Assembly: GCA_018700895.1 (NCBI GenBank)
Contig: JABIUV010000014.1
Coordinates: forward strand, 1 to 49,085
Length of the DNA stretch: 49,085 nt
Source of the DNA: Bacteroidota bacterium
GTDB lineage: Bacteria; Bacteroidota; Bacteroidia; NS11-12g; UBA9320
Reading direction: 5' to 3'
Shown: positions 2,589 to 47,521 of the stretch, piece by piece
Layout of the letters: each line of letters begins with the position of its first letter
How positions within the stretch are numbered: position 1 is the stretch's first letter
Made by a program: the position numbers and the translations under genes
The notes under the pieces: generated by a model
Told to the model about the DNA's origin: nothing
Database searches by the model: none
Seen by the model: only the letters and a program-made list of their open reading frames with translations

Positions 2589-3617
2589 ATGTACACCTAC
2601 TCGCTCCGCAAACACGTATTAAAGTTTATTAATCCTGCCAAAACTTCGCGAAATGTTTTCACCGAACGGGCCATTTATCTTATTACACTGGTAGATGTAT
2701 CTGCAGGGAAACAAGGTGTAGGTGAGGCAGCTCCACTATCCTTGCTAAGCATAGATGACGTAAGTGATTATGAAGCTATTCTTCATAATAAACTCCAAGA
2801 ATTTTGCGAAGCAAGAAAATTAGAAGATGTAGATTTAGCCATTTTCCCAAGTGTTCGTTTTGGTATAGAGACGGCATTACGCTCGCTAACAGCAGATGAC
2901 CAGGGCAGAATGTACGATACTCCATTTACCCGAGGGGAAGAACAGATACCCGTAAACGGGCTCGTATGGATGAATGATGCAGAAACCATGTATCAAGAAG
3001 CCATAGCCAAAATAAATGCAGGTTTTAATGTAATTAAGTTCAAAGTTGGAGCTTTAGATTTTGATGATGAATGTCGCCTGCTAGAGAAGATACGTCGCGA
3101 TTACTCAGCTTTTAGAATTACACTACGTGTAGATGCCAATGGTGCTTTTAAACCTGATGAGGCAATGGAGCAATTGTGTGAGTTAAGTAAATTTGAGTTG
3201 CACAGCATAGAGCAACCTATAGCGACCAATCAATGGGATGATATGGCACGATTATGTGCTGAGAGCCCAATAGATATAGCCTTAGACGAGGAACTCATCG
3301 GCGTAAATGTATATAACCAAGGAGCTAAGTTGCTCGATTACATCAAACCACATTATTTGATTCTAAAGCCCAACCTCATTGGAGGAGTATCCATAGCAGA
3401 TAAGTGGATAACACAAGCTAGAAAAGTGGACGTAGACTGGTGGGCTACTTCAGCATTAGAAAGTAACGTGGGGCTCAATGCCATTGCCCAATGGGTAAGT
3501 ACGTATGATGCTACTTTGCACCAAGGATTGGGTACAGGAGGGCTATTTACCAATAATCTGGATACGCGATTACTATTGCAAAAAGGCGTGATGTCATACG
3601 CTGAGCCGAGTAAATAA
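2589..3617 (+). CDS. menC: o-succinylbenzoate synthase MenC (enolase superfamily)
   Basis: Cytosolic dehydratase that converts SHCHC to o-succinylbenzoate in menaquinone synthesis. The 342-residue protein has the enolase-superfamily muconate-cycloisomerase layout: capping domain with GVGEAAPL near residue 45, then a TIM barrel with the catalytic Lys in VIKFKVG, the metal ligands Asp in VDANGAF, Glu in SIEQPI and Asp in ALDEEL, and the second catalytic Lys in LILKPNLIGG. The ATG at 2589 lies 3 nt after the menA stop. A dipeptide epimerase would share these motifs, but the operon with menA and the short N-terminal domain favour MenC. No menE is visible nearby. Confidence 0.92.
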   Translation: MYTYSLRKHVLKFINPAKTSRNVFTERAIYLITLVDVSAGKQGVGEAAPLSLLSIDDVSDYEAILHNKLQEFCEARKLEDVDLAIFPSVRFGIETALRSLTADDQGRMYDTPFTRGEEQIPVNGLVWMNDAETMYQEAIAKINAGFNVIKFKVGALDFDDECRLLEKIRRDYSAFRITLRVDANGAFKPDEAMEQLCELSKFELHSIEQPIATNQWDDMARLCAESPIDIALDEELIGVNVYNQGAKLLDYIKPHYLILKPNLIGGVSIADKWITQARKVDVDWWATSALESNVGLNAIAQWVSTYDATLHQGLGTGGLFTNNLDTRLLLQKGVMSYAEPSK

Positions 3618-3698
3618 AGATGGTTGGTGATTTCGAAAAATTATTGTGTAGATCATTTTTTTTTGTAGAAGAATATGACACTTGTGAGATAAATTGGC

Positions 3699-3706
3699 TA
3701 TCTTTG
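3699..3706 (+). promoter_or_regulatory. -7 promoter box TATCTTTG
   Basis: Exact match to the Bacteroidota -7 element TAnnTTTG. It lies 11 nt before the GTG proposed as start of the next gene and inside the longer TTG-started reading frame, which argues against the upstream start. No convincing -33 TTTG is seen at the usual spacing. Confidence 0.5.
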
Positions 3707-3717
3707 ACGTAACTATC

Positions 3718-4029
3718 GTGAATAAAATAATTTCCATAGCACTTATTCTATTGTTCACCTCAGCGGTAGCAATGGCGGATAATGAGCCTAAACTAGCTCA
3801 GAATTATCCTAATCCTGCTAAGGAAAAAACCTACGTGGAAGTTCAATTTTCATCACTAGAGGCTACACTTGCACTTTCTAATATACTAGGTGAAGTAGTT
3901 TCTATACAGGTTTTAAAGCACTCGGGTACATTTATTTTAGACGTAACCGAAATACCAGAAGGAGTTTACTTTTATACCCTAGAAGCTGACGGTCAGAAAT
4001 TGACTAGAAGGCTCACGGTGAAGAAGTAA
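3718..4029 (+). CDS. Mini-protein: signal peptide plus T9SS type A sorting domain
   Basis: A 103-residue secreted protein made almost only of export signals. From the GTG start the sequence begins MNKIISIALILLFTSAVAMA, a good Sec signal peptide. The remaining about 80 residues match a type A T9SS C-terminal domain: QNYPNPAKEKTYVEV, then LSNILGEVV, DVTEIPEGVYFYTLEADG and the basic end LTRRLTVKK. There is no passenger domain. A TTG at 3694 would add eight residues that lie across the -7 box, so GTG 3718 is preferred. It should cross the inner membrane by Sec and be recognised by the T9SS, whose SprA subunit is also encoded in this window. Function unknown; it could be a remnant of a larger cargo gene, but the clean signal peptide and own promoter box argue for a real small gene. 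Confidence 0.75.
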   Translation: MNKIISIALILLFTSAVAMADNEPKLAQNYPNPAKEKTYVEVQFSSLEATLALSNILGEVVSIQVLKHSGTFILDVTEIPEGVYFYTLEADGQKLTRRLTVKK

Positions 4030-4232: not shown

Positions 4233-4683
4233 CTAAAACTGCCAGCCATAGGATATCCGTAGTTGAAGTAGATTGGTTCGCAGGTTTGCAGTTTCACTGC
4301 AATCGCCATTTATACACGTATCAAACTCTGCGGGGTATAGTCCAGTAGAAAAGGTAAGTCTTCTACTTTTATAAAATTCTTTACGCATGAGTTTAGTGTA
4401 AGAGGCATCAATATCAAAATCACCCCTACTGTTGTTGGCTATATCTTCTAGCGGTACAGTGCTTAGATTTATATTGTGCACGAATCTTCCTGCAGGATTA
4501 AACTGGTAGGTAGTGATGGCTCTCAGGTTAAGTTCTAAGAAGGATAAATCTCCTCCTGCGTGGGTAGTAGATGTATAAAGCTCTTGCGTCTCATTTTTTT
4601 GATGGTGCAATGGTCATACGAATATGCGAAGTTTGAAAACCGTTCACCTTGGTTTGACCGAAATATGGGATGCCCCATATAGT
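4233..4683 (-). pseudogene. Outer-membrane beta-barrel protein, C-terminal remnant
   Basis: The last 125 residues form an open frame (4233-4610) with the alternating pattern of beta-barrel strands, ending LRISYGWQF with a terminal Phe typical of outer-membrane proteins. Going upstream, an in-frame TGA precedes the frame, but another frame continues the same kind of sequence (WGIPYFGQTKVNGF, about 4600-4680) before it too meets a stop. This indicates a frameshift near 4590-4600 and loss of everything further upstream. No start, signal peptide or family-level motif is left. I interpret it as the decayed tail of an unidentified outer-membrane protein. Confidence 0.6.
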
Positions 4684-4811: not shown

Positions 4812-5836
4812 TTTTTGCTCACCCCATTTGAGTACCACCCCAAGGTAAGAGACCATTTCAAAATCACTCACCAAGACGTGGAGCTGGTTTGCAGGCGAAG
4901 AACTCAAAGAGAAGCAAATAGAAGAACTCAAATCTTTGCTGCTCAAAAACACCTATCGGCTAGACCAAGAAACACACCAAAACCTATATTCTATAGCCGC
5001 GGAAGTGAACAAAATACTAGGGCTAGATGCAGAAGTTACGCTGTACCAAGATTACAATAGTGTACAGCTCAATGCTGGGATATCGTGCATTGGCAAGGAG
5101 GCACATATCGTACTATCAGGCAATCTTATAAATCTACTGAGCGAGGACGAGATGAAAGCCCTTCTAGCTCACGAGCTAAGCCACTACTTGTTTAACAAGC
5201 TAGAAAATGAAGACTTTGAAATCACACAACGTATCATATTGGCTTAGGCCAATGATGCTCGCAGCGAGGACAATTTGATAGAAGCTACTCGTATTTTCCA
5301 ATTGTAATTAGAACTATTTTGTGACGCAGGAGCACTGATGGTATTCCATGACCCGAAAGTGGTGATACAAACCTTGGCAAAACTAAACACGGGCCTTACC
5401 CTTGTGAATGCCGAAAGTTACCTCGCTCAAGCCAATGAAATAATAGGTGCGGATAGTGATGCGACTAGTCGTACCACACACCCAGAGTCTTACATACTGA
5501 GTATTGTCCTACAGCTAAGACACGAAGAAGAACCGGAGTACCTTACCAAACTAAAGGCGATGATATCGGGTGAATTAGATTTAAACAAACTCGATATTTT
5601 TGAGTAGTACACGATGGCAGATTTGACCTGCAAATTGCTGCAACTCATACTCAAGCCCAAGTATGGCCAGCTCAGGAATGCTCAACTTGGCAGCACAATA
5701 TTTCAAAGATTTTTATAGAGATACCGCAGAAGGAAGTCTGAAAGAATTGGGAGAAGAAATAGCCGAGATAGAAGAAGATTTTGGCAACATGCCACGTAGG
5801 CTGTATTCCCAACTTTTCAAACGACCGGTCTATTAG
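4812..5836 (+). pseudogene. Decayed M48-type zinc metallopeptidase gene
   Basis: One peptidase-like protein is spread over several frames. The N-terminal piece TPFEYHPKVRDHFK (about 4818-4859) shifts frame into KTWSWFAGEELKEKQ. That frame carries the zinc motif HELSH in ALLAHELSHYLF (about 5160-5195), typical of M48-like peptidases. It is then interrupted by TAG (5245), TAA (about 5296) and TAG (5605), with clearly continuing protein sequence in the same frame between the stops (for example FCDAGALMVFHDPK). A further frameshift near 5660-5690 leads to the C-terminal piece ending LYSQLFKRPVY at 5836. At least three nonsense mutations and two frameshifts make a working product very unlikely. 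The original would have been about 340 residues, without an obvious signal peptide. Confidence 0.85.
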
Positions 5837-5905: not shown

Positions 5906-6916
5906 CTAAGAGCCCTTCTCGCTAAAATAATTGCGTGCTGCTTCCTTACCGTATTGGATTACACGTAGTTTGGTGGCTTGTTTTTGCCGTTTTATTTTGG
6001 GGTTAAAATTGTAGGTGTTGATGTAGATAGTTTGGGCCTTTTGTTGTGTTCCAAGGTGCCTACGGTTCAGATATTCGCTACTTAGCAGGCTAAAAGCCAT
6101 CATATAATCACTGGTATTTTTTATGCGTTTAGGAGCTATATCCATTTGTGAGCTATCAGTTTCTAGTTTGATGCCCAGCGTGTGTATGTTGCTTTTGTAG
6201 TAAGAGTTGGCACCATTATTTGCACTTACTAGCGTATCGAAAACAAAGAAGGGGTAGTTATCCAAAATGCCACCGTCTACCATTACTTTGGTGGTACTGT
6301 CGGCATCTTTTTTGTCTATTATGCTACCGTCTGGTTGCATCCACAGAGCTTCAAAGTAAAGGGGTATGCTGATGCTGATACGCACGGCATCCAGTATTCG
6401 CATTTTAGGATACGTCTCGTGACTAAAAATTTCTATTTTTTGGTCGGTAAGGTTGGCTCCTGTGATGTATAGAAGTTTTACTTTTTTGCATTCTTGCTTG
6501 GCTTGGTACAGTTGCTCAAAGGTCATATCACTCTCAAATCCTTTGGCCTCCATAAGTTTGCCCAAGTCGTGGGCTAGTCTGTCTGACTTGTAGTAACCAT
6601 ACGTTCGTTTTACACGCACCAAACCGCCAAAAAATGGAAATCCCACGTGGTTATATTTACCAAACTTAGTATTGAGGTTGATGTGTCTTATCTCAAGACC
6701 AGAGTAGCCTAGGGAAAACATAAGCCCATTCATGGCACCAGAGCTGGCACCGGCTACTTGCTCTATGTCGACAGATATCCCCATACTATCCAGCACTTCG
6801 AATGCTCCTGCATAAGCCATACCTTTCATTCCTCCGCCTTCTAGCACGAGGTTGGTGTACTGAGCGTTGGATACAAGGCTGATAGCAAGGAGTATTATGG
6901 TGAAATATGATTTCAT
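5906..6916 (-). CDS. Exported patatin-like phospholipase
   Basis: Patatin-family serine lipid acyl hydrolase with a Ser-Asp dyad. The 336-residue protein starts with a Sec signal peptide (MKSYFTIILLAISLVSNA). The oxyanion-hole loop is LEGGGMKGMAYAGA (about 25-38), the nucleophile elbow is GASSGAM (about 56-62), and the catalytic Asp lies in VDGGILDNYP (about 213-222). No C-terminal barrel or sorting domain follows, so it is probably periplasmic. Its ATG overlaps the stop of the preceding small membrane-protein gene by 4 nt, so it appears to be the last gene of the mgtE unit. Substrate cannot be deduced. Confidence 0.9.
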   Translation of the reverse strand: MKSYFTIILLAISLVSNAQYTNLVLEGGGMKGMAYAGAFEVLDSMGISVDIEQVAGASSGAMNGLMFSLGYSGLEIRHINLNTKFGKYNHVGFPFFGGLVRVKRTYGYYKSDRLAHDLGKLMEAKGFESDMTFEQLYQAKQECKKVKLLYITGANLTDQKIEIFSHETYPKMRILDAVRISISIPLYFEALWMQPDGSIIDKKDADSTTKVMVDGGILDNYPFFVFDTLVSANNGANSYYKSNIHTLGIKLETDSSQMDIAPKRIKNTSDYMMAFSLLSSEYLNRRHLGTQQKAQTIYINTYNFNPKIKRQKQATKLRVIQYGKEAARNYFSEKGS

Positions 6917-7116
6917 TTTTTAATTAAACGGAAGATTATGTAAAGAATTGTTGCCAGACCAATGAAGAATGCTGCGTAAGTCAAAAAGTAATTGACTACC
7001 CACAAAGTATCTAAAAATGAGTCTAAAAGATAAGGAGTGCTAATCCCACAATACAGTAAAACTATAAGGCAAACTATTAAGAGCTGGTATCGGGTTTCTA
7101 AAGGTTTTAAACTCAC
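6913..7116 (-). CDS. Small membrane protein with two predicted helices
   Basis: Unrecognised 67-residue protein. It has two hydrophobic stretches (about residues 11-27, LLIVCLIVLLYCGIS, and 42-63, NYFLTYAAFFIGLATILYII) and a basic end FRLIKK, as expected for a two-helix inner-membrane protein. It overlaps mgtE by 4 nt at its start and the patatin gene by 4 nt at its end. Such coupling on both sides makes it a likely real gene although it is short. No function can be assigned. Confidence 0.7.
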   Translation of the reverse strand: MSLKPLETRYQLLIVCLIVLLYCGISTPYLLDSFLDTLWVVNYFLTYAAFFIGLATILYIIFRLIKK

Positions 7117-8468
7117 CCCAAAAACGCATTACCGATCATAAAATAGAGGAAGAGCCCTAAGAGGTCATTGCTCGTGGTTATGAATGGTCCCGTAGCTAAC
7201 GCAGGGTCTATTTTGAGACGGTCGAGAGCGAGAGGCACCACAGTACCAATTACGGCTGCCATGAGTATTACAGAGAGCAGTGCGAGGCCTACGGTCATCA
7301 TAATATCCAAGTGGCTGCCCGACACAAATCCGTAGCCCATCAGCAATCCAGAACAAACCAGTCCGTTTATAAGGGCAATAAGCAGTTCTTTTCCGAGCTT
7401 ACCCCATACATCGCTATTGGTAATGGAGTTATTGGCCAATCCTTGCACCATTAGAGAGCTAGACTGTACTCCTACATTACCGGCCATAGCCATAATGAGC
7501 GGTACGAATAGAGCGAGCTGTAAGTTGCGAGCCAATTCTTCCTCAAAACCACCTATTACTAGCGAACTGGCAATACCGCCTACTAAGCCTACGATAAGCC
7601 AAGGAAGACGTGCACGAGTGTTACTCAATACGGTGTCGGAGGTGTCTTTTCCGCCACTTATACCCGAGAGCATTTGGTAATCTTTCTCTGCCTCATCTTT
7701 TACATAGTCCAGCACATCATCAAAGGTTACACGACCCACTAATCGATTAAACGCATCTATGATAGGAAGGGCCACTAAGTCATATTTCTGCATAGTAGAG
7801 GCTACTTCTTCACCACTAGAGTAGGTGCTTTCGGATATGATATTGCTATCGTATATGTCTTCTACTTTTTGATTCTCGCGAGAGAGTAATATTTTTTTGA
7901 GTGATATCCACCCCAGAAGTTCTTCAAATTCGTCTACGACATAGGCCGTATAGACTTTACTTACATCTTCGGCTTGTATGCGTATCTCGTCGGTGCATTG
8001 TTTTATGGTCCAGCTCTGTTTTACGCGTATCAGCTCTTTGGCCATAAGTGCACCGGCCGTATTTTCTGGGAATTTGAGCAGAGAGGCGATATTTTTGCTG
8101 TGCTCTTTGTCGTTGATGGTCCGCAGTATCTCTTTGCTTTGGGTGGTATCCATCGCATTTAGAATATCAGCGGCATCATCAGAATCTATGTACACAAAAA
8201 AATCGTTGGCTATCTCCTCATTGGAGTATCCAGCAAGAAACTTGAGTTTCACATCGTCGTCTAACTCGGTGAGTACGTCCACCTTCTTCTGAGGCTCGAG
8301 CAGTGAGGCAATATACACTGCTTGGTCAAGGTTAAAATCATCAAAAAGCTCAGCAATATCGGCCGGGTACAACTTTTCTAATACCGGAAGAAGTTCATCC
8401 TGTTCTTGCGCTGTGATGAGCGAAATAAGCTCCTCTACAGACTCTTTATTTATTTCAATGGCTGACAT
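7113..8468 (-). CDS. mgtE: Magnesium transporter MgtE
   Basis: Mg2+ channel/transporter of 451 residues, a normal length for MgtE. The N-terminal helical MgtE_N domain (about 1-125, with LYPADIAELFDDF) is followed by two CBS domains (about 130-255, including AGALMAKELIRV and DLVALPIIDAFNRLVGRVTFDDV). The membrane part (about 285-451) has five hydrophobic helices, with MAGNVGVQSSSLMVQG and the conserved pore segment near GTVVPLALDRLKIDPALATGPF. The CBS and N domains sense cytosolic Mg2+ in this family. The ATG lies inside the 3' end of rsmA (14-nt overlap). No riboswitch is visible upstream, which fits its internal position in the unit. Confidence 0.95.
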   Translation of the reverse strand: MSAIEINKESVEELISLITAQEQDELLPVLEKLYPADIAELFDDFNLDQAVYIASLLEPQKKVDVLTELDDDVKLKFLAGYSNEEIANDFFVYIDSDDAADILNAMDTTQSKEILRTINDKEHSKNIASLLKFPENTAGALMAKELIRVKQSWTIKQCTDEIRIQAEDVSKVYTAYVVDEFEELLGWISLKKILLSRENQKVEDIYDSNIISESTYSSGEEVASTMQKYDLVALPIIDAFNRLVGRVTFDDVLDYVKDEAEKDYQMLSGISGGKDTSDTVLSNTRARLPWLIVGLVGGIASSLVIGGFEEELARNLQLALFVPLIMAMAGNVGVQSSSLMVQGLANNSITNSDVWGKLGKELLIALINGLVCSGLLMGYGFVSGSHLDIMMTVGLALLSVILMAAVIGTVVPLALDRLKIDPALATGPFITTSNDLLGLFLYFMIGNAFLG

Positions 8469-9219
8469 GCTTTTCTATAAACGCCGTTAACTCTTCAAAT
8501 TCTAGATAGGTTAAATTCTCGGGTCGCAAGGTACTAAATCGGTGTGTATTTAGTATTTCTTTTGGAATAATAGAGGCGAGGCCATTGCTTAGGGTTTTGC
8601 GTCGCATCCCAAATGCCGTTTTTACCACTCGCTTGAGCAGCTTGGGGTCGCACTTCCATGGATGAATTACACGGGTGGCTGTTACCACGATGCTATTTAC
8701 TTGCGGTGGTGGGTTAAATGCCTCTGGACCAAGCTTCATTACGGTCTCTACTTTGTAATAAAATGGGGTGAGTACGCTGAGTATGCCATATTCTTTTTTG
8801 TCTTTGGGCTGAGCCACAAGTCGTACGCCCATCTCATACTGAAACATCCCTACCCACTGTTCTATGAGGTCGGTGTTTTCTATGATTTTAAAAACGATTT
8901 GGGACGAAATATTGTAAGGAAAGTTTCCAATGAGGCTAAAAGGTTGGGTGTAGTAGTCTAGCAGATTTACCTTTAGAAAATCAGCCTTGATAAGTTCTAT
9001 CTTGGGGTAATGTTCCTTCAAATAGGTGGCGGCCTCAGGGTCTATTTCTACAGCTCTAAAACGCTTGGCCTCGTGGAGCATGAATTGGGTGATAATTCCC
9101 ATCCCAGGGCCTATTTCCAGCACATCTTGTTGAGAGATGTCTCCGAGGCCATTTACAATGGTTTGGGCTGTCTCGTTACTCGTGAGGAAATGTTGTCCGA
9201 AGTGTTTTTTAGCTTTCAA
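8455..9219 (-). CDS. rsmA: 16S rRNA dimethyladenosine transferase RsmA (KsgA)
   Basis: Dimethylates two adjacent adenosines in the 3' helix of 16S rRNA using S-adenosylmethionine. The SAM-binding motif is DVLEIGPGMGIITQ, the acidic ribose-binding motif follows as FRAVEIDPEA, and the catalytic motif IV is NFPYNIS. The C-terminal helical domain contains AFGMRRKTLSNGL. The open frame extends up to 9309, but that would add 30 residues unlike the family and overlap the toxin gene by 94 nt. A TTG at 9219 gives MKAKKHFGQHFL, the expected KsgA N-terminus, a 254-residue protein, and a TTGA overlap with the toxin stop. I therefore choose TTG 9219, though an unusual start codon leaves some doubt. Confidence 0.92.
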   Translation of the reverse strand: MKAKKHFGQHFLTSNETAQTIVNGLGDISQQDVLEIGPGMGIITQFMLHEAKRFRAVEIDPEAATYLKEHYPKIELIKADFLKVNLLDYYTQPFSLIGNFPYNISSQIVFKIIENTDLIEQWVGMFQYEMGVRLVAQPKDKKEYGILSVLTPFYYKVETVMKLGPEAFNPPPQVNSIVVTATRVIHPWKCDPKLLKRVVKTAFGMRRKTLSNGLASIIPKEILNTHRFSTLRPENLTYLEFEELTAFIEKHVSH

Positions 9220-9515
9220 GGTTGGTTTGTTAGATTGTTTGGGTCTTGCCGAGCGTCTAGCATAGCTTCTACCAATAAAGTGTTTGGGATCAATGAGTTG
9301 AGCAACCAATATTCTCTCACTCGCAGGTAGTAAGTATCTATGGTAAGTTGTTTTTTAATACTTGGGTTTTGGGCGACAAACTTCAATTCTGCGATAATCT
9401 CTTTTTCTAATTTACTCCGAAAGCTCAGGCTTTTATTGCAATAAAACCAATAGGCTAGAATATCTTTTTTCTGGTCTATGGCTTCTCCGGTCCATTTTAT
9501 AGTTAGTTTAACCAT
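9216..9515 (-). CDS. RelE/ParE-type toxin of a toxin-antitoxin pair
   Basis: 99-residue protein with the size and pattern of the RelE/ParE toxin fold: beta strand MVKLTIKW, two helices with an acidic/basic pattern (AIDQKKDILAYW and KLEKEIIAELKFVAQNP), and a C-terminal sheet with YYLRVREYWLL ending LDARQDPNNL, like the family ending (R-Q-x-P). Such toxins usually cleave mRNA on the ribosome or poison gyrase; which applies here is unknown. The start lies 13 nt inside the preceding antitoxin gene, and the TGA overlaps the probable TTG start of rsmA. No frame damage is seen. Confidence 0.75.
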   Translation of the reverse strand: MVKLTIKWTGEAIDQKKDILAYWFYCNKSLSFRSKLEKEIIAELKFVAQNPSIKKQLTIDTYYLRVREYWLLNSLIPNTLLVEAMLDARQDPNNLTNQP

Positions 9516-19293: not shown

Positions 19294-20729
19294 ACCAAAA
19301 CGTTAAGTATAATAAGACAAAAATCATTGCTACTATGGGGCCTGCTTGTGCAGATGTTCCTACACTCAAAAAAATAATTGAGGCAGGTGTAGATGTGTGT
19401 AGAGTGAATTTTTCACACGGTGATTGGGATACACATCTGCAAGTAATCAATAATGTAAGACAGGCAAACAAAGAATTAGGCACTAATGTAGCAATACTAG
19501 GTGACTTACAAGGGCCTAAATTAAGAATAGGTGAAGTGAGGAATAACAAGATGCTACTGGAGACAGGAGCTACTATGACACTCACCACCAAAGCTACGGT
19601 TAGCGAAGGTAACGTCATATATGTAAAATACTCAACACTAGCACGTGATGTGAAAGTGGGAGAACGCGTATTGCTAGATGATGGTAAGTTAGAGCTAGAA
19701 TTCACCAAGCGGGTAGATGACGAAACGGTAGAAGCAGTGGTCCTTAACGGCGGTTACCTTAGTTCTAACAAAGGATTTAACTTGCCTAGTTCGGACCTAT
19801 CTGTAGATAGTTTGACACCCAAAGACAAGAAGGACTTAGAGTTTATAATGAAACATGACTTTGATTGGGTGGCCCTCTCATTCGTACGTCACGCACAGGA
19901 CATTATAGACCTAAAAGCCATTTTAAAAGAAAATGGTTGCGAAGCTCATATCGTAGCTAAGATAGAGAAACCACAAGCTGTAGAAAATATAGATGCCATC
20001 ATAGCAGAGACTAATGCTATTATGGTAGCAAGAGGAGACCTCGGTGTAGAGATGCCTATGGAACAAGTTCCTATGATTCAGAAGATGATAGTGAACAAGT
20101 GTATAGATGCAAGTAAACCTGTGATTATCGCTACCCAAATGATGGAGAGTATGATAACTTCGCCTACACCTACTCGTGCAGAAGCGAGTGATGTAGCTAA
20201 TGCTGTAATGGATGGTGCAGATGCAGTGATGCTTAGTGCAGAAACATCTGTAGGTGATTATCCAGTGAAAGCTGTGCAAGCTGTGGAGCGAATATTAGGA
20301 AGTACCGAGCTAGGTTGGGATGTGTATAACAAGATTAAAAAACCAGACCCTACCTCACCCTCATTTATTAGTGATAGAATATGCTACGCTACCGTAAGTA
20401 TGAGTGCGGGAATTGGAGCTAATGCTATATTGAGTATGACACAATCAGGTTACACCGCATACAAAATCGCCAGTGGAAGGCCTAATTGTGACGTGTTTAT
20501 ATTCACAGCAAATAAGCGACTACTTACCAGACTAAGTTTGGTGTGGAATGTAAGAGCTTATTACTATGATAAAATGAGTAATACCGATGACACCATTCGT
20601 GACGTTATAAATATGCTCAAGGCAGAAAAATTACTGAATGATGGAGACGTAGTGATAAATACTGCTGCAATGCCAGTGGCCGAAAAGAAAAAAACAAACG
20701 CGGTAAAAATAAGCACGGTAGGTGAGTGA
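19290..20729 (+). CDS. pyk: Pyruvate kinase
   Basis: Final glycolytic enzyme, PEP plus ADP to pyruvate plus ATP. 479 residues. The N-terminal KTKIIATMGPACAD and CRVNFSHGDW, the catalytic Lys motif in AHIVAKIEKPQAVENIDAII, the metal-binding MVARGDLGVEMP and the ATQMMESMI segment are all present. The barrel, the B domain (about 75-170) and the C-terminal domain with ILSMTQSGYTA are complete. It is coupled upstream by ATGA to the IPExxxVDY gene and overlaps the DUF2480 gene by 8 nt downstream. Confidence 0.97.
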   Translation: MNQNVKYNKTKIIATMGPACADVPTLKKIIEAGVDVCRVNFSHGDWDTHLQVINNVRQANKELGTNVAILGDLQGPKLRIGEVRNNKMLLETGATMTLTTKATVSEGNVIYVKYSTLARDVKVGERVLLDDGKLELEFTKRVDDETVEAVVLNGGYLSSNKGFNLPSSDLSVDSLTPKDKKDLEFIMKHDFDWVALSFVRHAQDIIDLKAILKENGCEAHIVAKIEKPQAVENIDAIIAETNAIMVARGDLGVEMPMEQVPMIQKMIVNKCIDASKPVIIATQMMESMITSPTPTRAEASDVANAVMDGADAVMLSAETSVGDYPVKAVQAVERILGSTELGWDVYNKIKKPDPTSPSFISDRICYATVSMSAGIGANAILSMTQSGYTAYKIASGRPNCDVFIFTANKRLLTRLSLVWNVRAYYYDKMSNTDDTIRDVINMLKAEKLLNDGDVVINTAAMPVAEKKKTNAVKISTVGE

Positions 20730-21231
20730 AATAGTAAATAAAGTAGCCCAAAGTGGTATTATCACGCTCGATCTGGAAGATATGGTTCCGGACAGAGAGG
20801 CTGCACATATTGATGTTTTTGAACAGCTCTTTCAGGGCCTCATACTAAGAGAAAAAGATTTCAGGGCTTGGGTAAAGGAGCACGATTGGAGTGCTTATGA
20901 AGACAAAAATATAGCGGTGTATTGTAGCACCGATGCTATTATTCCTACGTGGGCGTTCATGCTTATCGCATCGGCACTTAGACCGTATACCACTCATGTA
21001 TATTTTACAAGACCTGAATTGCTATCGGCTCTATTAGCTGAGCGTGCATTAGCTGAGATAAACGAAGATGACTATGTTGACAAAAGAGTCGTTATAAAAG
21101 GTTGTGGAGATAGAGGTATAAGCAATCATGCCTATGTGCTACTTACCAATAAACTGGTAGGGGTAGCCAAAACGGTAATGTATGGTGAACCGTGTAGTAC
21201 GGTTCCTGTATACAAGAAAAGAAATCAGTGA
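20722..21231 (+). CDS. DUF2480 family protein
   Basis: 169-residue protein recognised as the Bacteroidota DUF2480 family. Typical stretches are SGIITLDLEDM near the N-terminus, VAVYCSTDAIIPTWAFM in variant form (IAVYCSTDAIIPTWAFML, about 72-89), and VVIKGCGDRGISNHAYVLLT (about 121-140). It begins with GTG inside the end of pyk (8-nt overlap). No catalytic role is established for the family. It closes the unit, followed directly by a strong hairpin terminator. Confidence 0.85.
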   Translation: MSEIVNKVAQSGIITLDLEDMVPDREAAHIDVFEQLFQGLILREKDFRAWVKEHDWSAYEDKNIAVYCSTDAIIPTWAFMLIASALRPYTTHVYFTRPELLSALLAERALAEINEDDYVDKRVVIKGCGDRGISNHAYVLLTNKLVGVAKTVMYGEPCSTVPVYKKRNQ

Positions 21232-27449: not shown

Positions 27450-30023
27450 CTATTCCTTCAAAAATTTATGTATCAATTTACCTTCTTCGGTTTGAAGTAG
27501 TAGGTAGTAGTGCCCAGTTATAAGCTTTGATAGGTCAAGGTGCGTCCTCTTCGGCAGTGTTGAATAGTCTACTTCGTGAACAGTTTTTCCTGTTACATCT
27601 ATAATCTGTAAGTTGATGTTTCTTATGTCTTGCTTTGTGGTGATGGTTAATGTATTGCTTACAGGATTAGGCGTTAAGATTATCGTAAATTCTTTGGCTA
27701 GATCACGTACCGAAACATTGGAGCTATCCATTGGTACTTCGATTAGGTCTACGGCCCAAAGTCCTCTTCCAAAAGTTGCTGCCACAAGTGTTTTTTCTGT
27801 CACGTTAATTTCTAGCTCATTGACTATCACATTGGGCAACCCTTCAGAATAAAACACCCAATTGGTAGAATCAGGATATAAAGCATATACGCCTAGGTCT
27901 GTTCCTACATAAATGAGGTTGCTTCCGTCTGTTTGTTGGGTGATGCAATTCACGGGAATGTTTGGCAAGTCATAGGTAATATTGGCCCATGTCGCTCCTG
28001 CATCTGTGCTGTGATACACCTTTTCATCGGCATTAAAACTAGGAAAGCAAATCCAAACTTCTGATGGATTCTCTTGATTCATTTCGATGTATCCTGGATA
28101 CATGTTACGAGGTAATCCGGTGCTAATGTCGGTCCACGTACTGCCATTATTGGCTGATGTTGCAATTCTATTCTGAATGTTTTGGCTGCTGTATCCTCTT
28201 TTGGCATAGTATATACGCGAGCCGTTACTTTTTTCTACGTCTAAGGCAGTTATGGGTACGTTGTCACTTAATGATAATTGCTCTGACAGATATCCGTCCA
28301 CAGCAGTGTAAACGTTGCTATATCCTATGTACAACTGTCCATCTGCCATTGTAAATGGCGTGGTCCATTCGGCTCGTTCACCTTCTGGAGTGGAAATGGT
28401 ATTCTCAAAACTAAAACCTCCACCGAAGGAGCTAAAGGCATTTATTCTGCCGTTTTGGGACGAAGAGTAACGGATATAGACTTCGTCAGCAAATTCGGAT
28501 TCCATTCCATCACCTCCGCTAATGTTATAAAATATGTTTCCATCCGTATATGAAGTGGAATTATCCTGAGCACCAGCCATCATTTCATTTGGGTTTTCTT
28601 CATTAATACTGAGTCGATAAAAAGACATGATGTTTAGACCGTCAATATAGTTAGTCCATTCCGTTTGGGCGGTATAATCATCTTTTAGTTGTGTAATTTC
28701 ATCGGCAATCACGTTAAAAGTACGAGAAATACCTCCATCGTGACAAGCAAAATAAGTATTGTTAGTAGGGTGTTGTATAATCTCGTGTATGTCGGCGTGC
28801 AAACTTTGGTCGTAGTAGTTGAGCAACCAATAGGTGATAGGTTTAAAGCTATTGCCCCCATTGGTTGTTTGCCAAATATTAACTCCTCCTATTAGCACTT
28901 TATTACGGTCATTTCTATCTACAGAAATGGCAAGATCGTATCTTCCTTGTCCGCCGGGTTCAGAGTTTAAATTCCAGTTTAGGATATTATACTCATAGGT
29001 ATTGTCGCGACGTGTGGCAAAGCTTGTGCCCCCGTTGGTAGAGCGATAAAATCCATAAAACCCTCCCAAGGTATCACACGCTATAGCATAAACGTAATCG
29101 GGGTCAGAAGGTGATATGGCAAGTTTCACACGTTGGGCAACTCCTGTGGCGGGTATATTGGTAATAGAGGCAGCCCACGTAGCACCAAAGTCGGTAGATT
29201 TAAGAATTGCTACTTCTCCCGTTTTGTAGGAATGTACATATCCCGTGGATGCAAATAGTACATTGGAATCAGTAGGGTGTTGCTCCAAGTCCCAGAATAG
29301 GCCGTCTCGTGTTTTGGTAAATGTTACTCCAGCGTCATTAGAAAGATAACAACCTGTTTGGCCTACAGCGAGAATCTTATCTGTGTTGGCGTGGTGTATA
29401 ATTACTTTAGCGATTAACGACCCTTCAAAATCAGTTTGGGCAAACGACAAGCCCGTTGCAGACCAAGTGGAACCCCCGTTGGTAGTTTTATATATCCCTA
29501 AACCATAGTGACTACTTCGCTTATTTTCATTGGCCTGGAGGTTATGACCTAAATAGGCATAGTCACCGAGGGCCACATACATAAGGTTCGGGTCTGTAGG
29601 ATGCACCGAAAGATACGAGGTGCGAAGTATCGGTAAGTCTCCAGAGATAGAAATCCAGCTAGCTCCAGCATTAGTTGTTTTCCATATACCGCCTTGGGCC
29701 ACACATATATACCACGTGTTAGTGTCAGTCGGGTGAAATTGCATGCTATTTACACGTCCCATACCCGCAAGGTCTTCCTTGCCAAAAGGTCCTTTCGGAA
29801 TCCACGTAGCGGTCTTCTTACTTTTGGTAGTCAATTGGTTGCTTACTGCGTGACTAGAGTAATACTCTTTGGCTTGGTTCACGGCATTAGGTGTTTCACG
29901 TTTATCCAAAAAGTCATTGTTTCTCAGAATATAATTCGGTGTTTCTTCACGCGGAGGAAGGTCTTGAGCAATGGCACAAACTGCACCTGCTAAGAATAAG
30001 AATGAAAGTAAATATCGATTCAT
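27450..30023 (-). CDS. Sortilin-like beta-propeller protein with T9SS type A sorting domain
   Basis: 857-residue secreted protein. A Sec signal peptide (MNRYLLSFLFLAGAVCAIAQ) is followed by a long region with many Asp-box/BNR-like repeats of the form S-x-D-x-G-x-T-W, for example STDAGATWANIT, STNGGTSF and SANNGSTWTDIS, as in sortilin/VPS10-like and exo-glycosidase-like propellers. The C-terminal about 80 residues are a type A sorting domain: ILTPNPVSNTLTITT, DVTGKTVHEVDY, LDLSKLITGHYYLLLQT and the basic end HKFLKE. It should be exported through the T9SS and anchored or released at the surface. No catalytic residues are identified; binding or adhesion is more likely than hydrolysis. Confidence 0.9.
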   Translation of the reverse strand: MNRYLLSFLFLAGAVCAIAQDLPPREETPNYILRNNDFLDKRETPNAVNQAKEYYSSHAVSNQLTTKSKKTATWIPKGPFGKEDLAGMGRVNSMQFHPTDTNTWYICVAQGGIWKTTNAGASWISISGDLPILRTSYLSVHPTDPNLMYVALGDYAYLGHNLQANENKRSSHYGLGIYKTTNGGSTWSATGLSFAQTDFEGSLIAKVIIHHANTDKILAVGQTGCYLSNDAGVTFTKTRDGLFWDLEQHPTDSNVLFASTGYVHSYKTGEVAILKSTDFGATWAASITNIPATGVAQRVKLAISPSDPDYVYAIACDTLGGFYGFYRSTNGGTSFATRRDNTYEYNILNWNLNSEPGGQGRYDLAISVDRNDRNKVLIGGVNIWQTTNGGNSFKPITYWLLNYYDQSLHADIHEIIQHPTNNTYFACHDGGISRTFNVIADEITQLKDDYTAQTEWTNYIDGLNIMSFYRLSINEENPNEMMAGAQDNSTSYTDGNIFYNISGGDGMESEFADEVYIRYSSSQNGRINAFSSFGGGFSFENTISTPEGERAEWTTPFTMADGQLYIGYSNVYTAVDGYLSEQLSLSDNVPITALDVEKSNGSRIYYAKRGYSSQNIQNRIATSANNGSTWTDISTGLPRNMYPGYIEMNQENPSEVWICFPSFNADEKVYHSTDAGATWANITYDLPNIPVNCITQQTDGSNLIYVGTDLGVYALYPDSTNWVFYSEGLPNVIVNELEINVTEKTLVAATFGRGLWAVDLIEVPMDSSNVSVRDLAKEFTIILTPNPVSNTLTITTKQDIRNINLQIIDVTGKTVHEVDYSTLPKRTHLDLSKLITGHYYLLLQTEEGKLIHKFLKE

Positions 30024-39074: not shown

Positions 39075-42000
39075 ATGAGAATAAGTAGAGCTCTAAGAGC
39101 TTCTGTGATATTGGCTATTTGTTGTTTTTGCTATGGTTTGGCTTCTGCCCAATTGGATAGTACCAAGCTACGCTATGAGCTAAAAGATAAAAAACTGGGA
39201 GAAGATGTTCGGCGTAATCTTATCGATTTCCGCGATCCGCCAAACATAAAGACAGAGTACAGATACGACGCCGAAACAGGAAACTACCTAGAGGTGGTAA
39301 CCGTAGGTGGCAAACCCATAGGTAGCCCACGCGTGCTAACGCTGATGGAGTATATGCGTGCCAAAGAAAAACAAGATCGTGAAGCTTATTACCGTAAAAA
39401 AAGTAATGCCGACAACTATGTAAAAGGGGGAGGATTGATTCCTCAATTAGCGGTTACCCCGGAGATATTTGATAAAGTTTTTGGAGGTGGAATTATAGAT
39501 ATACGCCCTACGGGTAGTGCGGAGGTGACCTTTGGCGGGAATTACAACAAGGTTGAAAATCCTACCTTTCCTGTTCGCCAGCAGCGTAACGGGCAATTCG
39601 ACTTTGAGATGAAAATGCAGCTCAATGTTACGGGTCAAATTGGAGATAGGCTCAAGCTGAACTGGAACTACGACACGGAGGCTACATTTGAGTTTGAGAA
39701 CCAAATGAAGCTAAACTGGGGTGGTGGAGAAGACGATATTGTAAAAAACATTGAACTGGGTAACGTAAGTCTTCCGCTCAATGGTAGTTTGATACAAGGT
39801 GGTAGAAACCTTTTTGGAGCTAAAACCCAATTGCAGTTTGGTAAACTAAAGGTTGCTGTCATCGCTACACAAGATAAGGGTGAAACCAAAGAAACAGAAG
39901 TAACCGGCGGTGCTCAAGTTACCAATTATGACATACAAGCTCATAATTATGATGCCAACAGACATTATTTCTTGTCGCAGTATTTTGCCGAAAATTATGA
40001 TAACGCACTCAGCAATCTGCCCATTATCATCAGTAACATTCAGGTAAATTATGTAGAGGTATGGGTTACAAACCGTAATAACGCTGTAGGCAACTCACGT
40101 AATGTAATGGGTTACCTCGACTTAGGAGAGCGAGAAGAAGAAGCATATAGACCTTGGGTGGTAAATACAGGCGGCGGTTTTCCCGATAATAATGGTACTA
40201 ACTATTATAATGACGTAGTCAAAAATCAAGAATTTTGTAATCCGTCAGATGCACGATTAGAACTGGGTATCGATTATGAATGCCTGAGTAATGCTCGAAA
40301 ACTGAATGCTAATGAGTTCGTATTTCATCCTACATTAGGATACATATCGCTCAATCAAGCATTGAATAATGATGAGGTGCTCATGGTGGCTTATGAATAC
40401 ACTGCCAATGGTGCCAATTTCAAAGTAGGAGACCTTACGGTAGACAATCCGCTTACCACAGGTGATAATGCTCACCTTAATCTAAAATTACTAAAACATT
40501 CTACCATCAAAACAACACTACCGACGTGGGATTTGATGATGAAAAATATCTACTCACTTAATACGTACAACCTTCAGCGTGAAGATTTTACGATGAATGT
40601 AGTGTATGCGGATGACCCAAGTGGTGCAGACTTAAACTACTTGCCTGTAGAAGCCTCGGAACCAGCTATCCGAGAGAAACAACTTATTACTGTTCTTAAT
40701 CTTGATAAAATAAACAAGCAGCAGGAGGCAAAGCCAGATGGTGTTTTTGACCTAATAGATGGAGTGACGATAGATGCACTCAAAGGACGTATCATGTTTC
40801 CAGTGAGAGAACCCTTTGGTGAGTTCTTACGGTCCAAGTTTGTAAGTGAGGACCAAGCAGACTACTATGCTTTTGACTCGCTGTACAGTACCACTAAGTG
40901 GAATGCAGAGCAAGATTTGAAACATAACAAGTATTTCATTCGTGGAACGTTCAAAGGTTCATCTTCTGACCAAATACGTTTGCAATGTTATAATATATCG
41001 CAAGGCTCTGTGCGTGTCACAGCCAATGGTAATGCCCTGCGAGAAGGTTCTGACTATACAGTGGACTATACGCTGGGAACAGTAAAAATTGTAAATCAGG
41101 GAATACTCAACTCTGGTGCCGCTATCAAAGCAACGTGTGAGAGTAACTCACTTATCAATATTCAACAAAAAACACTCGTAGGTACACGATTGGATTATAA
41201 GCATTCGGATAAGTTGGTGCTGGGTGGTACGTTTATGCATATGAGCGAGCAGCCGCTCACTAATAAAGTAAACATAGGTGACGAGCCTTTGCGAAATAGT
41301 ATATGGGGTGTAGATGGTTCTTATAACACCACGAGCAGATTTCTTACCCGAATGGTAGATAAGCTACCCTTTGTAGAAACTAAGGAGATATCGACCATAA
41401 ACTTTACGGGTGAGTTTGCACACCTTATCCCACACAAAGCCAAAACACAAGGAGATAAAGGTACTTCCTACATTGATGATTTTGAAGGAGCAGAAACACC
41501 TTATGACCTTAAGTATGTGCGTAGCTGGAATATAGCTAGTACACCACAAGGACAACCTGATTTATTTCCAGAAACGAGTTTGCCACTCAATGCCGATAGC
41601 TCGTATAACTCCAAAAGAGCAAGCCTTTCGTGGTACAATATTGATCCCGTTTTTCAAGGGGATGATAATAACCTGACGCCTCAAAATATCCGTGAAAATA
41701 CCCTTGAACGTAGTAGTCACTGGGTACGTACCGTCGTACAAAAAGAGATTTTCCCAGACATAGAGTTGCAGCAAGGACAGCCACAACAGCTGCCTACGCT
41801 AGATTTGGCGTACTACCCCAAGGAGCGTGGTCAGTATAATTATAACTCCGTAGACCTACAAGCAGATGGGACGCTAGACAAACCAGAAGAAAACTGGGGA
41901 GGTATCATGCGAAGAATAGAAACAAATGATTTTGAAGCAACCAATATTGATTACATAGAGGTATGGCTAATGGACCCATTTGTATATTCTAAATACAATG

Positions 42001-45000
42001 GCGACCCACACCATAAAGGACAGCTATACCTCAACTTAGGTTCTGTTTCAGAGGATATAATTCCTGACAGAAGACGCTCGGCTGAGAACGGATTGCCTAT
42101 TCCAGATGGTAATTACGTGGTAGATACGGGTGATTTCGCTTTCACGCCAAACGGACAAATCATAAACAAAGCTTTTGACAATGAACGGGCAGCAAGAGAA
42201 GCACAAGATGTGGGGCTAGATGGAATGGATGATGCCACAGAGCGAAAGCACCTAGAAGGCTACCTCAATGCCGTACGAACCAAGTTTGGTGCTACGTCAG
42301 CCGTATATACGCAAATAGAGAGTGACCCGTCGGCAGATAATTATATCTACCCACGTGACCCAGTGTATGATGACCAAGAAGCATTGGTCTTGCAACGTTA
42401 CAAGCGATTCAACGGGATGGACGGTAACTCTACCTTAGATAAATTGGCAGATGGAACGCCTAAGTCGGGGAATACTATTCCAGATGACGAGGATATTAAT
42501 CAAGATTTCACTGTAAACCTGACGGAAGAATATTACCAATACAAAATAGATATAGATCCTACTCGTCTTAGAATAGGAGAAAATTATGTGACAGATTCCA
42601 TCAGAGTAGAGGCTAATCAGATAGACCCAGGAGCACTGCCTAATGATCTTACGTGGTACCAATTGAAAATTCCAATTCGCCAGTATGAGAAAAAAGTTGG
42701 TGGTATTCAGGATTTTAAGTCCATACGTTTTATGCGTATGTACCTCAAAGGTTTTGAGGATAGCGTGGTATTGCGTTTTGCAAACCTACAACTAGTAAGA
42801 GCGGACTGGAGACGTTATCTGAATACACTGAAATTCCCGCCAAGAGTTGGTCCAGCTCAGGATCCTAATGACGATACGGAGCTTGTAGTGTCTACTGTAA
42901 ATGTAAATGAGAATAGTAAGCGAAGCCCTGTGCCATACAAGGTACCTCCTGGTTTTAACCGTGAGATAGACCCTACACAGCAGGGGAGTGTACAGCAAAA
43001 CGAGCAATCATTGAGTATAGCCGTATGTGACTTGGAAAAAGAAGATGCTCGTGGGGCATACCGTACATTGGATTTTGATATACGTAACTATAAGACAATT
43101 AAGATGTTTGTGCACGCTGAGTCAGAATTGGCTCAGGACAATGATATGGTGGCTATTATGCGTGTAGGTACTGATTTGGAAAACAACTTTTATCAGTATG
43201 AGGTGCCACTAAAACTGACACCTGAAGGTTCTGCGGATGACCGCGTAATATGGCCAGAGTCCAATGAAATGATCATAGACTTAGATGCCTTTTATAATGT
43301 AAAACTAAATCGACAATTGAATAACACGGGTAATCCGAATGGTTACTATTCCGAAATATTAGAAAACGGACATAAGGTAAGTATCATCGGACTCCCAGAT
43401 ATGAGTAACGTGAGAACGATACTGCTAGGAGTGAAAAATGCACAAACCAGTAGCCAAGAAAAACTATGTGGTGAGGTATGGTTTAATGAGCTCAGATTGG
43501 TAGACTTTGCCAACAGAGGTGGATATGCTGCCAATGCACGTTTGGTAGCTAAATTAGCCGATTTTGCCAATATAACCGTATCGGGAAACTACCAGACTAT
43601 AGGTTTCGGAGCGATAGACAAAAAATTGAATGAGCGTAACATTACAGAGCAGTTGCAGTACGATGTAGCAGCTAACGTACAGTTAGGTAAATTTTTCCCG
43701 CAGAAATCGGGAATTACTGTGCCTATGTTTATAGGATACAGTGAGAATATCGTGAACCCAAAATTCTACCCGCTTAATCCAGATATAGAATTGCGTACCG
43801 CCATAGACAATGCCGAAAGTGCCATAGAAAAGGATGCAATACGCCAAGCCGCTCAAGATTACTCATCGCGATATAGTCTCAACTTTACCAATGTGAAGAA
43901 AAACAGAACGAGCTCCAGTGGCAAAACTCATTTTTATGATATCGAAAATTGGAATTATACGTTCGCATACCAACGTCTGTTCCGCAGAAGTCAGGTCATA
44001 GAACGTAATGATGCCAAAACGTACAAGAGTAGCTTAGGTTATAATTATAGCATCAAGCCCAAATATTGGGAACCCTTCAAAAAGATTGTAAAAAATAAAA
44101 GTCTTGCTCTAATTAAAGATTTTAATATCGGGTTAACACCTGCTAATCTTAACTTTAGGGTAGATGTGGACCGCAGGTACAGCGAATTGATGAATAGGGA
44201 TAATGATAATTTTAAGTCCATTATACCTGTATTGTACGACAAAACTTTTAGCATAAATAGAGTTTATGGCTGGAAATGGAATCTTACTAAAGCCCTCTCT
44301 GTAGACTATGCCGCCACGGCTAATTCTTGGGTAGAGGAACCCTTTGGAGAGTTAAATACACAAGAGAAACGAGATACATTGTGGCAAAATTTCTGGTCAT
44401 TAGGCCAGCTCAATAATTTTAATCAGCGAGTAAATGCCAATTACAGCTTGCCATTGCGTAAGATTAAAATGCTAGACTGGGCTACAGTTACTACACGTTA
44501 TAGTGCGAGTTACGAATGGCGTAATGCTCCGCCTGCTTTTGTAAGTTTAGGTAATACCATCCAAAACTCAAGAACTATGGGCGTGGTAGCTAATATGAAT
44601 CTGATCTCCCTCTATAATAAGTCGGACTTTTTGCGTAAAGTAAATAGACCCACCCGAAGACCTGCTGTGAAAAAAGACACCGATGAAGATACCTTAGATG
44701 GTGACGATAAGAAGAAAAAGGGGGAACTAAGTGAAGGCACCAAGGGTCTTCTCAAATTCTTGATGATGCTGAAACAAGTGCAAGTAACTACTAACTTTAC
44801 AGACGGAACCACCTTGCCTGGATTTACTAAAAGCATAGATGCTATTGGTCAAAACTTTGCTAATAACACACCTGGGTTGCCATTCATATTTGGTGCACAG
44901 AGTGAAGATTTTAGAAATACCATCGCTCAGAATGGATTCCTTACACGTGATACCAATCAGATAGCTCGTTATATCAATATGAGTGGTTTAGATATCAATG

Positions 45001-46747: not shown

Positions 46748-46852
46748 TTTGATCTTTTCTTAAGAAATGGATGAGACTGCCAGTGGCGGTCCCATTTTTT
46801 TTGCTCGAAATCCAACCCTTTAGAGCATTTATGTGTTGATTGAATAGTAGTT

Positions 46853-47521
46853 ATGATTCAACAAGCCACCTTTTCATTTCTCAAAGACCTCCAAAAGAAT
46901 AACACACGAGATTGGTTTAAGGAGAATAAGAAGCGGTATGATACCGCACGCAAAGAGTTATTATCATTCTTAGATGCCACTGCTGATCAACTTAATCTTA
47001 CGGATGTTTTGGAGGATAAAAAGATTTTCAGAATTAATAGAGACATCCGCTTTAGTAAAGACAAATCACCCTACAAGAGCAACTTGAGTGGCTATTTTGT
47101 CAGGGCTGGAGCTTCACGCAGGGGAGGTTACTTTATAAGCATAGAGCCAGGAGGCAAAACTATCGTAGGCGGGGGTTTTTATGCTCCCGAGAAAGACGAC
47201 CTTTTGCGGATACGTCGCGAGTTTGAAATGGATGCGACCGAAATAGAAAAAATAACTTCGGATAAGAACTTTATTAAGCATTTTGGGCTACTACGCGGCG
47301 ATAGTCTGAAGTCGGCACCACGTGATTTTGACAAAGCACATCCCAATATTAAATGGATACGCATGAAGCAATTTTATGTCATGCGTGAATTCACAGATAA
47401 GGAGGTAACCGCAGATACATTTGAGAAAGAAGTGATGAATGCTTTTTTAGCGATAAGACCATTCTTTGATTATATGAGCGATGTGCTTACCACAAATCTT
47501 AACGGAGAATCAATTTTGTAG
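46853..47521 (+). CDS. DUF2461 domain-containing protein
   Basis: 222-residue cytosolic protein of the DUF2461 (TIGR02453) family. Family-typical stretches are FLKDLQKNNTRDWFKENKKR (about 9-28), RDIRFSKDKSPYKSNLSGYF (about 63-82) and the glycine-rich EPGGKTIVGGGFYAPEKDDL (about 99-118). It is full length. Function not established. Its 3' end overlaps the restored end of the convergent aminotransferase pseudogene by 12 nt. Confidence 0.92.
   Translation: MIQQATFSFLKDLQKNNTRDWFKENKKRYDTARKELLSFLDATADQLNLTDVLEDKKIFRINRDIRFSKDKSPYKSNLSGYFVRAGASRRGGYFISIEPGGKTIVGGGFYAPEKDDLLRIRREFEMDATEIEKITSDKNFIKHFGLLRGDSLKSAPRDFDKAHPNIKWIRMKQFYVMREFTDKEVTADTFEKEVMNAFLAIRPFFDYMSDVLTTNLNGESIL

Follow-up and report, generated by a model that had tools for sequence, protein, structure and literature searches.

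A conserved stand-alone T9SS sorting domain without a passenger in uncultured Bacteroidia, with a possible role at the secretion machinery

RESULTS

A sorting domain that lacks a passenger

The window analyzed here is the whole 49,085-nucleotide stretch of contig JABIUV010000014.1, from a Bacteroidota bacterium. The features around the gene of interest are the following.

2589 to 3617, plus strand: menC-like upstream neighbor (PF13378, PF21508), a syntenic flank on the same strand as the stand-alone gene
3682 to 3706, plus strand: promoter region, with a degenerate upstream element TTGTGAG (3682 to 3688), TTG after 5 bases (3694 to 3696), and a -7 box, TATCTTTG (3699 to 3706)
3718 to 4029, plus strand: stand-alone T9SS type A sorting-domain gene (GTG start, 103 amino acids, stop ending at 4029)
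3718 to 3777, plus strand: signal-peptide-like N terminus (approximately residues 1 to 20, ending AMA), from sequence inspection and a predicted helix
3790 to 4026, plus strand: sorting domain (residues 25 to 103), a predicted seven-strand beta sandwich
5906 to 9309, minus strand: downstream convergent neighbors patatin, a small ORF, mgtE, and rsmA, from Pfam and synteny

No ATG lies in frame upstream of the GTG start. The N terminus is a putative signal peptide, judged by its sequence and by a predicted helix at residues 3 to 17, and its hydrophobic character is conserved across the aligned orthologues. A few residues separate this stretch from the sorting domain, so there is no passenger. 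The sequence-only reading had described a 103-residue product made up of a signal peptide plus an almost complete type A sorting domain. We confirmed this, and the domain is complete. It scored 41.8 bits against TIGR04183 (cut-off 23), with residues 30 to 102 covering positions 2 to 72 of the 72-position profile, and 41.5 bits against PF18962 (cut-off 27). Family proteins are 102 to 118 residues long (30 copies with an assigned start). Within the genus, only a few residues lie between the two parts; over the whole family, this stretch differs in both length and sequence.

Both profiles were matched by all 31 family members (E ≤ 0.001). G58 is invariant in the 31 sequences, and we take it to be the essential Gly of motif Lb3b4, as that motif is described in the accessible part of PMC11285876. 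The C-terminal strand and the loop Gly are retained in the family alignment. T-[KR]-[KR]-[LM] occurs throughout the family near the C terminus, and K103 is nearly invariant. By our own assignment of equivalent positions, the window copy has Arg where the near-invariant type A Lys is expected.

An AlphaFold2 model made from the alignment of 31 sequences has seven strands, with a pLDDT of at least 90 for 79 of the 103 residues; the helix at residues 3 to 17 is of lower confidence than the sandwich. The top VIA-align match was the T9SS domain of mirolase (8qb1, Z 11.4), and PorU (Z 10.8), PorZ (10.1), and the NucA domain (9.9) were also in the top six. However, unrelated Ig-like domains from an S-layer protein (Z 10.9) and a glycoside hydrolase (Z 10.7) tied with these, so the fold alone is indecisive and the sequence profiles decide identity. 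Foldseek placed a DUF3244 protein first (3sd2; a modest E value of 3.6e-4, VIA Z 9.4), with two more, 4g5a and 3d33, in its top seven rows. None of the 31 family members matched the DUF3244 Pfam profile at E ≤ 0.001. By profile and predicted fold, the window protein is a type A sorting domain. It is not normal cargo because the passenger is missing, and it is not PorA because PorA's N-terminal domain is missing (see Discussion).

The domain by itself is unremarkable because its own genome has 80 TIGR04183 matches at E ≤ 0.001. The remarkable part is the missing passenger. Other short frames in that genome (on contigs C17, C2, C31, C42, and C51 and a second match on C53) were set aside; in none of them does a signal peptide immediately precede the domain, and they look broken, truncated, or like cargo. 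C2 has paired adjacent sorting-domain matches in separate frames (20272 to 20769 and 46766 to 46971), which may be broken cargo genes.

Where contigs reach, the gene order in the genus is menA, menC, stand-alone gene, (patatin), mgtE, rsmA, and menC also lies upstream of the stand-alone gene in G023 and G027. Elsewhere in the family the context varies, and a convergent gene follows in the ten loci listed. Because the neighbors differ in this way, menA-menC and patatin were dropped as functional partners. In the window, a 125-residue minus-strand ORF (4233 to 4610) precedes an M48-like peptidase reading on the plus strand that is split over several short frames (4936 to 5836). The latter contains a HELSH motif, which we take to indicate an M48-like peptidase. 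This stretch looks like inserted, decaying DNA because in G016 patatin comes almost immediately after the stand-alone gene.

The stand-alone gene is conserved in its family

One option in the sequence-only reading was that the gene is the leftover of a truncated cargo gene. A profile built from 31 sequences was used to search the window's family (38 genomes). In 34 of these, the best match was a stand-alone copy (E ≤ 8.4e-37), counting a copy in G013 that is cut by a contig end. The homologues in relatives are therefore short too, and their promoter is conserved (see below), which refutes that option. G006 has a frameshifted copy (C66, approximately 4840 to 5150, locus L056) in an otherwise syntenic locus, reflecting a recent loss or an assembly error. 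The same search found no stand-alone copy in G022, G025, or G033; the G022 and G033 assemblies are 78% and 87% complete. Because these three lack the gene and G006 has a broken copy while cargo-domain matches remain, the gene is apparently dispensable in some lineages.

Short frames also stood apart from cargo in broader searches. A protein search of 58 relatives ranked them first in the majority of family genomes, with E values from 2e-46 to 2e-19; after a gap, long cargo followed at approximately 2e-9. In a search of 395 genomes of the class, with at most 11 candidates scored per genome, family members came first, and the matches listed outside the family, which began at 1.8e-23, were frames of at least 200 residues. 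In a named genome collection, 45 of the 47 lower-scoring loci (L124 to L170, among the best 80 of 117 loci) were frames of at least 250 residues, and the other two were cut by contig ends. Family members are mostly named Bacteroidia bacterium or Bacteroidetes bacterium, and many are metagenome assemblies. A tree of 92 sequences, including 39 cargo domains, placed all 31 stand-alone sequences of the window's family in one clade apart from cargo (support 0.84). Looking in relatives for short sorting-domain proteins with conserved length and neighbors, the check proposed with the original reading, thus gave a positive answer. In these sequence comparisons, the stand-alone gene is a conserved independent gene and not a deletion remnant.

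Stronger conservation of the stand-alone domain than of three cargo domains

We calculated dN/dS for the 18 lowest-dS pairs of the 120 pairs among 16 genus members. It was 0.00 to 0.07 in the nine closest pairs and 0.02 to 0.21 in the next nine. Therefore, the gene is under strong purifying selection.

With the window gene as reference, the stand-alone domain is 66 to 82% identical to its orthologues. The sorting domain of cargo L002 is 40 to 51% identical (passenger, 61 to 77%), that of L005 is 47 to 67% identical, and that of L007 is 25 to 47% identical. The stand-alone domain was the more conserved in all 32 same-genome comparisons (11 with L002, 14 with L005, and 7 with L007), which are not independent because they share one reference genome. 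The closest contrast was 70% versus 67%. Some cargo partners are distant (L005 passenger identity, 25 to 43%; L007 domain, 25 to 31%, with passenger approximately 50 to 60%), so domain replacement may inflate the L005 and L007 contrasts. We left out G004 (contig end), G012 (39% passenger identity, taken as a paralogue), and G006 (no intact gene) for L002; G006 and the second copies in G003, G007, and G014 for L005; and G004 and G006 for L007. The three second copies reflect two neighboring L005 homologues in each of those genomes. L005 and its relatives (L205 to L223) are 243-residue cargo in which the sorting domain is more conserved than the passenger. An 856-residue T9SS cargo in the window itself (27456 to 30023, minus strand) was unusable as a control, being found in 1 of 19 genus genomes, its own (E ≤ 1e-60). 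It is an example of patchy cargo.

In Flavobacterium johnsoniae, the surface of a type A domain that touches the translocon is poorly conserved, according to the accessible part of PMC10994853. Ordinary export alone would thus not obviously demand the conservation of the stand-alone domain.

The gene has its own promoter

The -7 box noted in the sequence-only reading is real. In the window it ends 11 bases 5' of the GTG start, and the motif TAnnTT[TC]G is within 40 bases of the start in all 30 family genes scanned, compared with 43 of 229 further ORFs from those loci (ATG start, at least 120 residues). The scan covered 30 of the 34 family genes, leaving out G013 (cut), G058, G059, and G060. 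The motif ends 8 to 23 bases before the start. TTGGYA lies 10 to 14 bases 5' of it in 19 of the 30 genes but not in the window copy. Half of these genes (15 of 30) start with TTG or GTG, versus 0 of 22 genes in the sister family described below (starts assigned from the alignment).

The pattern TTGGCAY-N10-13-TAnnTTTG has 29 sites in 7 genomes, which were picked because the gene carries the pattern there. Seven are the stand-alone genes. Sixteen of the other 22 are inside frames of at least 150 residues. Of the remaining 6, four are outside such frames with no ORF start near, and two precede ORFs (one read as FtsK-like and one of 178 residues). No T9SS regulon on this promoter is apparent from the 29 sites. 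A wider promoter pattern gave 7 sites in the window's own genome (control pattern, 1), two of them before genes read as lpd-like and lon-like, and 0 sites within the window. At L230 (C44, 147226 to 147251), before the gene read as lon-like, TTGGCAC-N5-TTGCC is followed by TATCTTTG, a double element resembling that of the stand-alone genes. A very long ORF in the window (39075 to 46133, plus strand, approximately 2,350 residues) has TAnnTTTG 92 bases 5' of its ATG.

A sister family has similar genes beside a PorE-like gene

Four short matches in one genus of the order's other family and one in another genus seeded a second alignment, with which we searched the order. A sister family has at least 22 verified stand-alone genes of the same build (70 genomes); a match in G052 was left out as a contig-edge cargo fragment. 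All five sister-family members tested matched TIGR04183. The 22 sister genes formed one clade in the 92-sequence tree (support 0.80), but a joint clade of the stand-alone genes of both families that excludes cargo was not recovered. Common descent of the two groups is not proven; it is suggested by a shared TTGGCAY element and the profile matches.

Fourteen of the 22 sister genes are flanked by an M1 peptidase gene and a PorE-like gene. Five are between a gene for 242 to 248 residues (with a Pfam outer-membrane barrel match in one of the two scanned) and a gene that we read as aldolase-like, two follow TonB-type genes (for G039, the matching gene is the second one upstream), and one is elsewhere. 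Six PorE-like neighbors were scanned. They have 888 to 934 residues and scored 364 to 428 bits against the NCBIfam PorE family NF052230, below its cut-off of 600; PorE was the best family, with nearly equal scores for the CHU_0125 family. TPR, PD40, CarboxypepD_reg, and OmpA domains were found in all three PorE-like proteins scanned with Pfam (E ≤ 0.001), one CarboxypepD_reg match being below its own cut-off. PorE itself is a T9SS component. When the sister M1 and PorE-like proteins were searched with tblastn against 32 loci from the window's family, none matched at 1e-5.

The sister genes have a different promoter. TGGYAY-N5-TTG occurs in the 70 bases before all 22, versus 0 of 117 neighboring ORFs in the same loci (again ATG start, at least 120 residues), and before 1 of 229 ORFs in the loci of the window's family. 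None of the 30 genes of the window's family has this strict motif. Conversely, TAnnTT[TC]G is not enriched before sister genes (5 of 22 versus 41 of 117). The sister motif is not unique to these genes, since both strands of the sister loci (204 kb) have 38 sites, 22 of which are the stand-alone genes. With the form TTTGGCAYRnnnTTTG, these sites closely resemble the consensus for sigma-54, TGGCAC-N5-7-TTGCT, given in the accessible text of PMC12316311. The base after TTG is C in 7 of the 22. Eight of the nine genomes tested had a match to the rpoN profile PF04552. Of the four sister genomes in that set, G050, G038, and G105 had one (in G105, a frame of 45 residues located at a contig end), whereas G046, despite carrying the motif, did not. 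Because the final C is present in just 7 of 22 and the profile is missing from G046, we call the promoter sigma-54-like only. The motif begins exactly 27 bases 5' of the ATG in 13 of the 22 genes, in which a sigma-54-like promoter would put the transcript start at or adjacent to the ATG.

DISCUSSION

Sorting domains are usually regarded as disposable address labels. The stand-alone family says that the label itself can be the functional part. The strong conservation of a bare tag in a group of uncultured Bacteroidia suggests that it has a job of its own, probably on the secretion machine.

We tentatively favor a "blank" sorting domain that may engage the T9SS carrier and translocon as a resident ligand, competitor, or sensor, although we put this at somewhat below an even chance. 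A role as decoy, regulator, or competitor of the T9SS, raised in the sequence-only reading, is possible, and the PorE-like neighbor in the sister family and the precedent of PorA make it likelier. A surface peptide with a role of its own, another option in that reading, is also conceivable. The product would cross the inner membrane by Sec and then fold in the periplasm. Because the type A fold and motifs are kept, it might be accepted by a PorV-type carrier and the SprA/Sov pore. Because the protein lacks a passenger, the PorU sortase would find nothing that it could anchor or release; we therefore propose that the effect would fall on the machine. A passenger-less ligand could damp, prime, or report secretion load at the carrier and translocon, by analogy with PorA on PorV-Sov. 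In the sister family, the ligand perhaps acts jointly with the PorE-like wall anchor, and the sigma-54-like promoter suggests production on demand. However, the neighbors in the window's own family are housekeeping genes, and the extra FimH-like domain of PorA, as it appears in the accessible accounts of that protein, may carry PorA's function. Both argue against a ligand of the machine. So do the failure of the sister M1 and PorE-like proteins to match in loci of the window's family, the PorE scores below the cut-off, the missing or broken copies in four genomes, and the lack of TTGGYA in the window copy. We regard a more detailed version as rather unlikely: a passenger-less ligand inherited across an order of Bacteroidia, with a nearly leaderless, sigma-54-like promoter in one family, would occupy the carrier-translocon-PorE machinery, serving there as gatekeeper or load sensor.

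The main rival is a free-standing Ig-like envelope or surface protein, acting in adhesion, in a coat, or in wall binding independently of the T9SS and comparable to the Bacteroides DUF3244 proteins of solved structure. The three DUF3244 structures near the top of the Foldseek results favor it, as does Fjoh_0547, which is reported from the medium of sprA and porV mutants (PMC7712824 citing Lauber et al., in its accessible part). The type A profile, matched by every member tested in both families (31 and 5), argues against it, as do the failure of all 31 to match DUF3244 and the retention of the C-terminal strand and loop Gly; on balance, we consider it doubtful but a serious contender. An ordinary minimal cargo would leave through SprA, stay on the surface or be shed from it, and carry no payload besides the domain; the machine would be unaffected. 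Such a cargo would account for a complete signal with nothing besides, and the near-consensus promoter close to the start codon in relatives would suit an abundant product. We nonetheless think it unlikely, as it leaves unexplained both the higher conservation than in the cargo domains tested and the linkage to a PorE-like gene.

The other two rivals fare worse. If the sortase cut where the domain begins, a few residues might be released, making the protein the precursor of a small secreted peptide. However, the stretch in question is just a few residues in the genus and variable across the family, and conservation sits in the domain, so this is very improbable. A remnant of cargo that lost its passenger, for which the broken copy in G006 could be cited, is refuted for the family as a whole and has next to no chance of being correct. 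The short gene is kept in 34 of 38 family genomes, dN/dS is near zero in the closest pairs, the clade is separate from the 39 cargo domains, and the lower-scoring loci of the named collection are long frames apart from the two cut by contig ends. What remains most plausible to us is a ligand of the secretion machine. The family would offer a natural minimal ligand for PorV-type carriers, useful for questions of T9SS gating and load sensing. If the gatekeeper or load-sensor reading is true, the machinery would have a built-in regulator derived from its own export signal.

Among known systems, PorA (PGN_0123) of Porphyromonas gingivalis is a CTD protein that takes part in the T9SS and is found with PorV-Sov (PMC7712824, PMC8754138). 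In the accessible parts of these papers, PorA amounts to 22% of Sov in Sov pull-downs and follows PorV (PMC8754138), and it affects PorXY-SigP signaling (PMC7712824). However, PorA has 246 residues and a FimH-like N-terminal domain, with homologues reported there only in Porphyromonas, whereas the window protein has 103 residues and no such domain. Fjoh_0547 of F. johnsoniae, a 112-residue CTD protein, is similar in size (accessible part of PMC7712824). It favors the free-standing envelope protein because it indicates that small CTD proteins occur elsewhere and may exit without SprA or PorV.

Cargo domains matching TIGR04183 and PF18962 are the same domain as that of the window protein by sequence profile, fold, and loop Gly. 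However, cargo carry a passenger, whereas the stand-alone domain makes up nearly all of the mature protein and surpasses the domains of the three tested cargoes in conservation. In the clusters PG1035-PorP-PorE and Fjoh_3952-3951-3950, a CTD protein is linked to a PorE-type wall anchor, much as the sister genes mostly have a PorE-like neighbor; the proposed role of PorE-type proteins is to tether CTD proteins to the wall (accessible text of PMC12618676). Those CTDs are type B with a PorP/SprF-like shuttle, whereas the stand-alone genes are type A. DUF3244 proteins (3sd2, 4g5a, and 3d33) resemble the window protein as small Ig-like sandwiches but differ from the family in sequence, as the Pfam result indicates. 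Our literature search on stand-alone CTDs, which covered mostly papers outside subscription, found no conserved passenger-less family. Therefore, we regard the family as a new variant: small CTD proteins are known, and what is new is a conserved passenger-less family with its own promoter, of two types, and a PorE-like neighbor.
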